Both the position numbers and the translations under genes were made by a program. A stretch of 64,000 bases of DNA from an uncultured Verrucomicrobiota bacterium (lineage in GTDB: Bacteria; Verrucomicrobiota; Verrucomicrobiia; Limisphaerales; UBA9464). Under the pieces are notes generated by a model. The model was not told the DNA's origin, ran no database searches, and worked only from the letters and a program-made list of their open reading frames with translations. The stretch lies in NCBI GenBank assembly GCA_903910585.1, contig CAIWAH010000230.1:1-64000 (forward strand). Direction: 5' to 3'. Below are positions 39,692 to 43,098 of this stretch, piece after piece (position 1 is the stretch's first letter; each line of letters opens with the position of its first letter).

Positions 39692-40402
39692 TCAAGTCAG
39701 GTGGCCGCGGAACACCGGTTCCAGAAGGGCCAATTCCTCCTCCTCGATGCCCATGGAGCCGAAGACCGCGAAGCAGTCGAGGTGGATCAGCGCGTTGGAG
39801 TTGGCGTCGCGCATCTCGATGGTCGCGAGCCGGTCGCGAAAGCAGCGGTTCAGGGTGGCGACGTCGTCGTAAACGTCGGCAAACCGGGCCAGCGTCCAGT
39901 CCGGGTTGAGTCCGCGGCGCTGGCGGAAGAACTGGGCGAGCAGATAGGTGCTGAGGGAACGGAGCAACGTCTCCTCCAGCGTGGCAAAGGGCAGGTGAGT
40001 CGCGGCCATCGGACGAAGCCGGTCCATGATCGGACAGCCGCTGGTGACCATGACCAGGCCCATGAGCGAACTGAGGCCTGACTGCAACGCCACTTCCTTG
40101 CGGTATTCCCGGGCGCCGGTGCGGACGGTGACCTCGGCCCGCTCGTGGGAAAGGGAATCCCGGAAGATCTCGATCACGCCGGCCAGGTTCCGGGCTACCG
40201 GGCAGTGGGGGTGGTCCGGACTGCGGAGCGGGCAGTGCCGGCATTGGTGGTTTTCGAGCCGGGTCCAGGCCGGGGCGTCCGGCGCTGGGGCGGGAACCAG
40301 CTGAAAGTCCGGCAGACGCAGCAAGACCTCGAACGAACGCACCGAGCCGTCGGCGAACCGGAACTCGTAGTGCAGGGATTGGCTGGTGGGACGTTCCGAC
40401 AT
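39692..40402 (-). CDS. Conserved hypothetical protein with a Cys cluster
   Basis: 236 residues from an ATG at 40402. No signal peptide. An N-terminal beta region (LHYEFRFADGSVRSFEVLLRLPDF) is followed by a Cys cluster, C54-x2-C57-x9-C67 (CRHCPLRSPDHPHCP), which may bind zinc or an iron-sulphur cluster. The rest is helical (ETLLRSLSTYLLAQFFRQR, DVYDDVATLNRCFRDRLATIE) and ends with several Glu. I do not recognise the family. The gene lies downstream of the MamK-like gene, separated by a strong hairpin. Confidence 0.6.
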   Translation of the reverse strand: MSERPTSQSLHYEFRFADGSVRSFEVLLRLPDFQLVPAPAPDAPAWTRLENHQCRHCPLRSPDHPHCPVARNLAGVIEIFRDSLSHERAEVTVRTGAREYRKEVALQSGLSSLMGLVMVTSGCPIMDRLRPMAATHLPFATLEETLLRSLSTYLLAQFFRQRRGLNPDWTLARFADVYDDVATLNRCFRDRLATIEMRDANSNALIHLDCFAVFGSMGIEEEELALLEPVFRGHLT

Positions 40403-40460
40403 GCAGTGGCGCAAGCGGAAGAACGGGTGTTTCCGCGGCCGACTTGAGCGGAAAACGCAT

Positions 40461-40488
40461 TGAGCCAAGGCCGTGAGGCCTTGGCTCA
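40461..40488 (-). terminator. Perfect 12-bp-stem hairpin downstream of the actin-like gene
   Basis: Stem TGAGCCAAGGCC with loop GTGA and its exact complement. On the minus strand it follows the MamK-like gene (end 40539) and comes before the start of the gene at 40402. The sequence after it contains a short TTTT. Its position suits transcription termination of the actin-like operon. Confidence 0.6.
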
Positions 40489-40538
40489 GTGCTATGAAGG
40501 CCCCCGATCCACTCGAACCGGGGGAATTGGGAAGGGGA

Positions 40539-41717
40539 TTACTTGATCACCTGCTGCCACTGATTTTCGCGGGCCTGACGGGCGGCCTTGAGGGCACCCA
40601 GGGCGACGAACTCCTTGTAGCGGTCGCCCGCAAGCCGGACGCAGGGCTGTTCGTAGCCCTCTTCGGACAGCAGGCGCTGGAGTTCCACGTCGAGTCCGCG
40701 GATCCGGCTGCCGCCGCCGGTGAGCACGATGTTCTGGAGGAGTTCACCCACGCTGTCCGAGGAGGCGCGCGAGATGAGTTCCTTCACGGTGTTGAAGATG
40801 ACGTTCAGCAGTTCGCCGCAGGCAACCCCGAGCTGTTCGGTGATGTCGAGTTTGCGGGCTTTGCCGTTGACCATCACGGTCGCGACGATGGGGCCGGACG
40901 GTTTGCCGACGAACGAGAACTGCTCCTTCAGCTCGCGGACCTTGATGGGCGAGAGCTCGCAGTCGGGATAGGTCTTGCGGACGGCGTCGTAAAAGAGGCC
41001 GTCCACACGGTCACCGGCGAACGCCAAGGACACCTGGTCATCGGCGGTCGGGTAGTAGCCTTGGATCAGGCAGACGTCGGTGGTGCCGCCGCCGATGTCC
41101 ACGAAGAGGGAGTTGCGGACCGGGTCCACGTAGCTGGTATCGCTCAGGCGGGTTTCGTCACGGAATCCCAGCGCTGCGAGGAACGGCTCCGGCACCAGCA
41201 GCACGCGGTCAAAGAGGCCGGCGACGCACTGGCGGACGTTTTCGCGGGCCGGGGCATCGGCATTTGCCGGCACGCCGATCACGGCGCGGATCTCCGTGCC
41301 GGTCGGGGTGGCGATCAGGGAGCGGAGATGGCGGGCGAAGTCACGGGCGGCTGGCAGATCCTTCACCACGCCATCCACCATGGGCTGGACGAGGTTCAGA
41401 TGCAGCCGGTGCTGCAGCGCCTTCTGGCCGTAGAGCACGGTGGCGTTGTCCGGCAGCAGGCCGTCCACGATGCCTTCCTTCGCGTAGCCGACGATGGTCG
41501 GAACGATCTCCTCGATCGCCAACTCGGGTTTTCCGGCGTAGCCCGCCTTGAGGCAGGACTTGTTGGTTCCCCAGTCAAAGCCGAGGTAGAGGATCGCCTT
41601 TTCGGTCGTCTGCGGGGTGAGTTCGCCGGTGTCAAAACGGCCTTTGCCGTTGGTCACCGCGGTGGTGGAGTCGAGTTTGGTGAACCGGGGATTCCGGACG
41701 TTAAGCGTGGCATTCAT
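40539..41717 (-). CDS. MamK-like actin-family ATPase
   Basis: 392 residues with the actin/Hsp70 ATPase signature: phosphate-1 loop LGFDWGTNKS (about residues 45-54), phosphate-2 FVDIGGGTTDVCLI (about 209-222), LKEQFSFVG, and the adenosine motif VLTGGGSRIRGL (about 340). LKEQFSFVG and LQNIVLTGGGSRIRGL are very close to MamK, the magnetosome filament protein, rather than MreB or ParM. A 40-residue Thr/Asn-rich leader precedes the fold. It likely forms ATP-dependent filaments in the cytoplasm. No magnetosome genes are in the window, so the role could be organelle or DNA positioning. A small gene 48 bp upstream on the same strand may encode a partner. Confidence 0.82.
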   Translation of the reverse strand: MNATLNVRNPRFTKLDSTTAVTNGKGRFDTGELTPQTTEKAILYLGFDWGTNKSCLKAGYAGKPELAIEEIVPTIVGYAKEGIVDGLLPDNATVLYGQKALQHRLHLNLVQPMVDGVVKDLPAARDFARHLRSLIATPTGTEIRAVIGVPANADAPARENVRQCVAGLFDRVLLVPEPFLAALGFRDETRLSDTSYVDPVRNSLFVDIGGGTTDVCLIQGYYPTADDQVSLAFAGDRVDGLFYDAVRKTYPDCELSPIKVRELKEQFSFVGKPSGPIVATVMVNGKARKLDITEQLGVACGELLNVIFNTVKELISRASSDSVGELLQNIVLTGGGSRIRGLDVELQRLLSEEGYEQPCVRLAGDRYKEFVALGALKAARQARENQWQQVIK

Positions 41718-41765
41718 GGCACTTGGGAGATGAGGGACTGGGGAGATGAACAGGCGGCGAAAGGG

Positions 41766-42266
41766 TCAGGCGGCGAGCGCGGTGGTCGCCCGGCGCGGGG
41801 CGGAGAAACCGGTGCTCAGCAGGTGGTCGAGAACCGAGGGGATGTCGTCGAACGCGACGCGATTGCGGGAGGACGGCCGAGAGGCGGGGCGAGGCTCCCA
41901 CCGGGCGGAGGCATCGCCGCTGTCACGGCCTACCCCCGCCCGGCGGAGTTCTACACCCACTGTTTCACACACACTGGAACACACCACTGGCAGAAAGTCT
42001 TCGCGAAGGCGGGCGCTGAGCAGTTCGTTCATGACCCACAGGTCATCCATGCGCCGCTGCTCCTGCTGGAACATCGTGTCCAAACGGGCCCGCTTCGCGT
42101 CCGGGTCCGCCGCATCGTTCCGGGACCACTCGGAAATGCTGCTGGGCAACTGTTGCCGCATCATCGCCTCCGATTCCTCCTGCCGTTCCTGGCGGCGCAG
42201 CAGGCACAGTTGGCGGAAGTCGCGGACGACCTTTTCCCAACGGCTATCGAAGTGGTTCACGCTCAT
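41766..42266 (-). CDS. Small charged helical protein, possible actin partner
   Basis: 166 residues from the ATG at 42266. It is strongly charged and helical: SRWEKVVRDFRQLCLLRRQERQEESEAMMRQQ, KRARLDTMFQQEQRRMDDLWVMNELLSARLRED. The C-terminal part is low-complexity (RRAGVGRDSGDASARWEPRPASRPSSR) and ends VAFDDIPSVLDHLLSTGF. No family is recognised. It lies 48 bp upstream of the MamK-like gene and reads in the same direction, so the two are probably co-expressed; by analogy with other bacterial actin pairs it may be an adaptor or regulator. That role is inference. Confidence 0.55.
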   Translation of the reverse strand: MSVNHFDSRWEKVVRDFRQLCLLRRQERQEESEAMMRQQLPSSISEWSRNDAADPDAKRARLDTMFQQEQRRMDDLWVMNELLSARLREDFLPVVCSSVCETVGVELRRAGVGRDSGDASARWEPRPASRPSSRNRVAFDDIPSVLDHLLSTGFSAPRRATTALAA

Positions 42267-42504
42267 GGCAGCTTTGCGACGGGTTTCGCTTCGGTCGTCG
42301 GAGGCCAAAGCAACGGCCGTGCCGAGTTGAAAAACGGGCCTTTTCCGTGGCTGGCGAAGCCCAACCGGCAACTTCGTCCCGGTTTGCGGCGGTTCGCCGG
42401 GCAAAGCCTGCCGGATGATCGCCGCCTCAGCGCGGGTGCCGGGCAAATTGTGCTCGGCGTCGCCGCTGGCTGCCGGTGTCGGGCTGAACTAGCCTCGGAT
42501 CCGC

Positions 42505-43098
42505 ATGCCTGAACCGCTGCCTACCGCCTCGTCGTTCGCTGAAATCGCGCCGGGAATCTTCCGCTGGGCAGCCTTTTCCCCGTTCCACAAGGTTGAGCTG
42601 ACGTCGCACGCGGTGGCGTCGGCCGATGGGTTGCTGGTGTTTGATCCGATACCGCTGGCGGAATCCGAGGCCAGCCGTCTGCGGTCCGCCGCGGCTTGCC
42701 GTGGCATCGTGCTGACCAACGGCAACCACGCGCGGGCCAGCGCGGATTGGGCGGAGTTGTTGGACGTGGCGGTGCTGAGTGCGTCCCCGGAACCGTTTCC
42801 GGGCGAACACCAAATCCGGCCGTGGCGCGACCAGGATAGCTGGCAGGCGCGGGCGTTGCCGGGAGGAGCGCCGGGGGAAACGATGTTCCATCATGCCGGT
42901 CTGTCGCTGGCCGTGTTCGGTGACGCGGTCGTCAACCTGCCGGACCGGCAGCTGGAATTGCTCCCGGACAAATACTGCGCCGACGCGGGCGCCTTGCGGT
43001 CGTCGCTGAGGAATCTGCCGTCGTTTGAACGCGCCCTGTTCGCCCACGGTCAGCCGCTGCTGTCCGGGGCGTCGGCGAAGCTTGCCGCGCTCTTGTAA
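42505..43098 (+). CDS. MBL-fold-like protein with degenerate metal motif
   Basis: 197 residues. The start (IAPGIFRWAAF...HAVASADGLLVFDPIPLAESE) and the VFGDAVVNLP segment follow the metallo-beta-lactamase fold, but the key HxHxDH motif appears as TNGNHARA, lacking several ligands. It is therefore probably non-hydrolytic or altered. It precedes the LolCE-like gene by 33 bp on the same strand, possibly one transcript. Confidence 0.7.
   Translation: MPEPLPTASSFAEIAPGIFRWAAFSPFHKVELTSHAVASADGLLVFDPIPLAESEASRLRSAAACRGIVLTNGNHARASADWAELLDVAVLSASPEPFPGEHQIRPWRDQDSWQARALPGGAPGETMFHHAGLSLAVFGDAVVNLPDRQLELLPDKYCADAGALRSSLRNLPSFERALFAHGQPLLSGASAKLAALL

Follow-up and report, generated by a model that had tools for sequence, protein, structure and literature searches.

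A small gene linked to BeeR actins in Verrucomicrobiota and the BeeR-dependent tail of its product

Introduction

What does an actin-like protein do in a bacterium in which its gene lies directly behind a small gene without a named family? This question is raised by a locus in DNA of an uncultured Verrucomicrobiota bacterium (positions 1 to 64,000 of contig CAIWAH010000230.1, the whole stretch being referred to here as the window). An initial annotation made from the sequence alone described the locus as a MamK-like actin with a small unrecognised partner and proposed a two-gene filament system. In 2025, BeeR was published as an actin-like protein of Verrucomicrobiota which forms a three-stranded, ATP-dependent tube (PDB 8R2N) and carries a disordered N-terminal extension; the paper assigns no cell function to BeeR and names no partner gene (PMC11929497). 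The features of the locus are as follows.

41766..42266, minus strand: small partner gene, 166 residues, ATG start, without named family
41940..42257, minus strand: residues 4-109 of the small protein, forming its helical N-domain (helices 4-25, 29-50 and 55-109)
41859..41936, minus strand: variable Pro/Ala-rich linker, residues 111-136, low conservation and low pLDDT
41811..41858, minus strand: residues 137-152, the C-terminal motif and proposed docking helix for BeeR
41718..41765, minus strand: intergenic gap of 48 nt between the small gene and BeeR
40539..41717, minus strand: BeeR actin-like gene, 392 residues
41595..41717, minus strand: BeeR N-terminal extension, residues 1-41, predicted disordered, family hallmark
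40501..40524, minus strand: second hairpin, directly after the BeeR stop, z -1.35
40461..40488, minus strand: candidate terminator 3' of BeeR, a 12-bp hairpin followed by a T-rich tail

The actin-like protein is a member of the BeeR family

According to the initial annotation, the actin carries the segments LKEQFSFVG and LQNIVLTGGGSRIRGL and is more like MamK than MreB or ParM. Both segments are present and MamK is indeed the nearer of these actins, but the protein is not an unassigned MamK relative; it belongs to the named and structurally solved BeeR family. With NCBIfam BeeR model NF053558.1 it scores 540.3 bits and passes the cut-off of 530, which rules out an unassigned MamK relative, while it remains below the cut-offs of both the curated MamK model (231 vs. 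400 bits) and the ParM model (12.8 vs. 27.4 bits). In a phmmer search against solved structures, 8r2n_A from Opitutus terrae ranked first (E 5.3e-133), ahead of MamK (5e-40) and MreB (1e-13), MamK being the next nearest actin with about 31% identity to solved MamK and a common KEQFSFVG segment. The same entry, 8r2n_A, is the best PDB fold match of the modelled actin as taken from the fused-pair model discussed below (TMt 0.96, rmsd 1.6, 56% identity). A placement inside ParM on a plasmid-like cluster had been named in the initial annotation as an outcome that would speak against the system. In a tree with MreB and MamK-like outgroups, the window actin groups within BeeR, in a clade of seven rows (99/94) that all have the small gene. 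In the plasmid and phage collections, the best matches are actins of 24-28% identity, those with an annotation being MreB, and BeeR is absent from the plasmid collection; a plasmid or phage origin is thus ruled out as far as these two collections show. The initial annotation also stated that the window has no magnetosome genes; for MamK-like actins this was checked, and a search of the window's own genome for a second MamK or BeeR found none.

The N-terminal extension, in which the window protein resembles O. terrae BeeR, is a hallmark of 30-50 residues; in window BeeR, 45 residues precede GFDWGT, and the extension is modelled with pLDDT below 50 (residues 156-216 of the fused chain). Members of genus g72 (L026, L027, L091-L093), several of which have a broken BeeR, carry a conserved FLGYPxSxxLISTADPDFEE-like segment in this extension. 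The BeeR paper names 12 residues in cross-strand contacts, 10 of which are found at the given numbers in the O. terrae sequence; R252 and N380 are not and were left out. Among these 10 usable contacts, two are identical in window BeeR (E153, L284), four are similar (R242K, N246D, I277V, L385I) and four differ (R157Q, T307E, Q310S, E149A), so that, in contrast to the shared fold, several polar cross-strand contacts of O. terrae BeeR are not kept. Because only 2/10 contacts are identical and 4/10 similar, a three-stranded filament is no more than expected for window BeeR.

Organisation of the locus

As the initial annotation had it, the 166-residue gene lies 48 bp upstream of the actin gene in the same direction; both are on the minus strand and even in the same reading frame, with one stop separating them. 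A hairpin was also said to end the unit, and the 12-bp hairpin at 40488-40461 does lie downstream of BeeR with a fold z of -7.96 vs. shuffles, terminator-like sites of hairpin plus tail numbering 2 vs. 1.7 expected from shuffling. The hairpin at 40501..40524 is ordinary, with no clear advantage over shuffles. No sigma-70 promoter was found over 40300-42700, and no curated RNA family in the window. Within the gap, immediately 5' of the BeeR start codon, a 16-nt tandem duplication (88% identical) occupies 41718-41749. Beyond the pair, the next same-strand gene has a DUF6901 match, and a divergent metallo-beta-lactamase-type gene lies upstream.

The small protein: fold, tail and family

AlphaFold prediction with 51 sequences gave a mean pLDDT of 85.8 for the small protein. 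It bears out the helical character claimed earlier, with three predicted N-terminal helices (pLDDT 95-98 for residues 11-110), a disordered linker (pLDDT 62-67) and a final helix at 139-151. Conserved residues of the N-domain, which has a median charge of -2, are W10, R18, C21, L40, I44, F66 and E69. The linker has a median Pro+Ala content of 0.38 and is poorly conserved compared to the motif following it (mean BLOSUM62 0.18 vs. 1.24). This tail motif, I-x-x-Phi-Phi-D, lies in an amphipathic consensus helix D-D-[IV]-[PA]-x-Phi-[IL]-D-x-Phi-L, where position 142 is I/V/L and position 147 is D/E, each in 51/51 members.

The small gene is real and under purifying selection: the ORF is more than chance because homologues occupy the same place in 37/40 actin loci and Nei-Gojobori dN/dS is 0.05-0.37 in 10/10 small-gene pairs. 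Its product is shorter and faster-evolving than BeeR. Searches of the window protein against Pfam, NCBIfam and PHROGs gave 0 matches at E 0.01. Scanning 51 members with Pfam and NCBIfam, and five with PHROGs, did not assign a family either; the only matches were stray ones of single members. Foldseek returned nothing at E 0.001 or better, and a profile search of PDB sequences nothing under E 0.14. VIA-align listed middling Z scores up to 6.3, a range that means little for helical bundles, as by the tool's own note any Z under 13 does. Hence, no solved fold clearly resembles the predicted structure.

Linkage of the small gene to BeeR across genomes

In a first set of 40 actin loci, 38 of them BeeR, 37 have the small gene immediately upstream in the same orientation; some of these loci come in pairs from the same genomes (L004/L028, L005/L029, L006/L030, L007/L042). 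The loci lacking it are L008 and two MamK-like actins, L009 and L010, which are closer to MamK (386 bits for L009, cut-off 400). The BeeR of L014 is identical to 8R2N over 386/386 residues and is thus that of O. terrae; its own small partner, encoded 47 nt upstream, has 153 residues. In 20/20 loci with flanks, the small gene and BeeR are the only recurring genes, shadow frames apart. Loci L096, L106 and L109 lie beside pseudopilin-like genes. Four loci labelled Klebsiella, Proteobacteria or Akkermansia (L032, L033, L034, L037) nevertheless carry, and group with, the Verrucomicrobiota pair and are probably mislabelled metagenome bins.

Three wider surveys followed the two genes genome by genome. 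Among 387 Verrucomicrobiota genomes, BeeR occurs in 18. These 18 and G367 are also the genomes in which the small gene is matched strongly (E below 1e-10); weak matches with E 6e-4 to 5e-3 in G078, G305, G193, G225 and G251, as well as a second weak match in G148, were counted as chance. Among 200 genomes of the O. terrae family, 71 have BeeR, 67 the small gene, 65 both, and 63 both adjacent. The exceptions were checked: the small genes of G466 and G501 are divergent, G593 has a contig break, and in G555 a deletion fuses the small gene and BeeR. Hence, 67/71 BeeR genomes of this family retain the small gene at least as a remnant, and 4/71 lack it (G451, G499, G516, G590). At 12 distinct loci of the family, L014 among them, a third gene lies directly upstream of the pair (in L014 about 700-1300 bp before BeeR), in several cases after rplU-rpmA. 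Its product has a coiled coil, a membrane helix at the C-terminus and the segment DRLxELxRQRxLVQEHLxWLDREIA; the gene was not seen in the window's lineage.

In the window's own order (245 genomes), the actin is present in 32, the small gene in 24 and both in 19. The universal linkage apparent from the first 38 BeeR loci is therefore ruled out by the order-wide count of 19/32, and of the two-gene system proposed initially the linkage stands (37/40 loci, 67/71 genomes), but not as a rule without exception. Twelve of the 13 actin genomes without the small gene belong to one family, f15, whose BeeRs (L130-L142, L008) have a common N-terminus, MRTT[YF]V-x-P-x-T; these BeeRs perhaps use another partner. 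Since 13/32 genomes of the order and 4/71 of the O. terrae family do without the small gene, BeeR can function, or at least persist, alone. The hypergeometric p of 8e-43 for co-occurrence ignores shared ancestry, and duplicated copies and the tail motif provide better tests.

Duplicated pairs, decay and the tail motif

Three genomes (G449, G480, G520) contain two BeeR loci each, and in a comparison of BeeR and small-gene trees each BeeR copy is paired with a small gene from the matching clade (6/6). Decay often affects the genes together as well: G367 has five stops in the small gene and only an N-terminal remnant of BeeR, in G560 both are broken, and the deletion in G555 runs across both, while in G528 and G544 BeeR is broken and the small gene open.

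The tail motif is found in 54/57 small proteins encoded beside BeeR vs. 1/5 from BeeR-less genomes (Fisher p 3e-4; shuffled tails 2%), where some of the 57 are close relatives and the five BeeR-less proteins amount to about four independent cases, G620 and G662 being of one genus. The set of 57 leaves out L091-L093, which lie beside broken BeeRs and all have the motif. Misses of the strict pattern are L027 and L135, each one position off, and L072, whose tail was located by eye in another frame. Among the BeeR-less genomes, G627 keeps the motif, and G620, G662, G003 and G728 have small genes with an intact N-domain; in all five, other actin-like matches are weak (best E 2.5e-8) and MreB-like by appearance. 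The intact small proteins of G620 and G662 (L146, L148) have the N-domain and lack the tail motif. Even the small protein encoded upstream of the 30%-identity actin of G610 has the motif. From the counts and from G610 it follows that the motif follows the actin and that the N-domain can outlast it, and the intact N-domain in four genomes without BeeR argues for another use of this domain.

Predicted contact and related systems

A contact between the proteins was modelled as one AlphaFold chain, the natural read-through of both genes, and compared with the small protein alone, a covalent link of this kind favouring contact. Upon fusion, pLDDT rises in the motif (66 to 74 for residues 131-140, 81 to 91 for 141-150) and residue 138 makes a bridge, while it falls in the linker (62 to 39 for 121-130), in the tail (59 to 29-55) and at the end of helix 3 (98 to 78 for 91-100). 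The predicted contact that the initial annotation had asked for is thus supported indirectly, in the motif block, and the model of one linked chain, a set-up favouring contact, suggests that the tail motif may dock on BeeR.

Docking of a linker-borne C-terminal peptide on an actin homologue would have a counterpart in FtsZ and FtsA. The FtsZ peptide has the motif D-[IV]-P-x-Phi-[IL], to which the tail of the small protein is similar in kind; unlike FtsZ, which has R at the corresponding place, it has D/E (51/51), and the small protein is not an FtsZ. Binding of the FtsZ C-terminal peptide to the actin homologue FtsA is described in the relevant section of PMC5508204. FtsZ tails in these bacteria read KGRFEHTE (L113, G000) or RGHFEKTD (L111, O. 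terrae), and in the window's clade NGKGRFDTG occurs in the N-terminal extension of BeeR; judged by these letters, the two may possibly have a short binding motif in common.

Proposed role and alternative explanations

The preferred reading, which we consider moderately probable, is that the small protein serves BeeR as an adaptor or regulator: docked by its tail, it would tether or position the filaments or nucleate them. It draws on the anatomy of a folded N-domain, a flexible linker and a short actin-dependent tail helix. BeeR and the small protein would form a two-gene filament module in which BeeR is expected to polymerise with ATP, as others showed for the O. terrae protein, and the short C-terminal amphipathic helix of the small protein would dock on it. 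The helical N-domain would supply a second function, either associating with itself or holding on to a cargo or a site in the cell, and the pair could thereby nucleate, tether or position the filaments. Direct binding and its site, like the adaptor role and the kind of cargo, are what we infer here from the observations above. Held more tentatively, and rather doubtful as a whole, is the wider proposal of a Verrucomicrobiota positioning or scaffolding system in which the tail helix joins a self-associating N-domain and its cargo to rigid three-stranded tubes, i.e. a partner-driven cytoskeleton that would have evolved separately from ParM-ParR, MamK-MamJ and FtsA-FtsZ.

The main rival would have the small protein bind BeeR monomers or cap filament ends, limiting or timing assembly with no cargo, the N-domain merely dimerising or stabilising it. 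Linkage, small size, faster evolution and the BeeR-tied tail motif fit such a pure assembly regulator equally; in G620 and G662, however, the N-domain is kept without BeeR and without the motif, which points to a separate function, and we regard this rival as unlikely. Mere co-inheritance of neighbours, in which the small protein would have a separate task and never contact BeeR, would account for the small genes without BeeR (5/24) and BeeRs without the small gene (13/32) in the window's order, but it would leave unexplained the loss of the motif where BeeR is absent, the cognate pairing of duplicated copies, the joint decay of both genes and the lack of anything else conserved around the pair; it appears improbable.

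A chromosomal, ParMRC-like DNA segregation module with the small protein as DNA-binding adaptor is suggested by the layout of ParR, whose N-domain binds DNA and whose C-terminal stretch binds ParM, according to the sections of PMC5016525 and PMC4911067 on these interactions. As a working analogy only, the small protein shares the arrangement of a folded N-domain adaptor with a short actin-binding C-terminal stretch; in contrast, the window actin is not a ParM, and the small protein is unrelated to ParR and encoded upstream. A ribbon-helix-helix strand was sought in the predicted N-domain and a parC-type iteron array in the window and O. terrae stretches, and neither was found; homology to ParR is ruled out by the strandless helical prediction and the lack of iterons. 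With an all-helical N-domain of median charge -2 and no BeeR in the plasmid collection besides, this module is very improbable. Least plausible of all, a folding or secretion chaperone of BeeR resembling the flagellar chaperone FliT can be drawn from a weak fold match (FliT, Z 4.7), but Z under 13 means little for helical bundles, and O. terrae BeeR expressed in E. coli was soluble and assembled by itself (PMC11929497).

Significance

No other work on BeeR, nor any paper citing the BeeR study, was found in the open-licence papers searched. Hence, the actin itself is already known, but the small family linked to it appears to be new, together with the dependence of its tail on BeeR and the existence of a lineage in which BeeR does without the small gene. 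For BeeR, the filament structure has been solved, with neither a function nor a partner given in its paper (PMC11929497). The small gene, a conserved neighbour in the operon whose product has a short tail tied to BeeR, offers a concrete handle on the role of this filament and makes the question directly testable.
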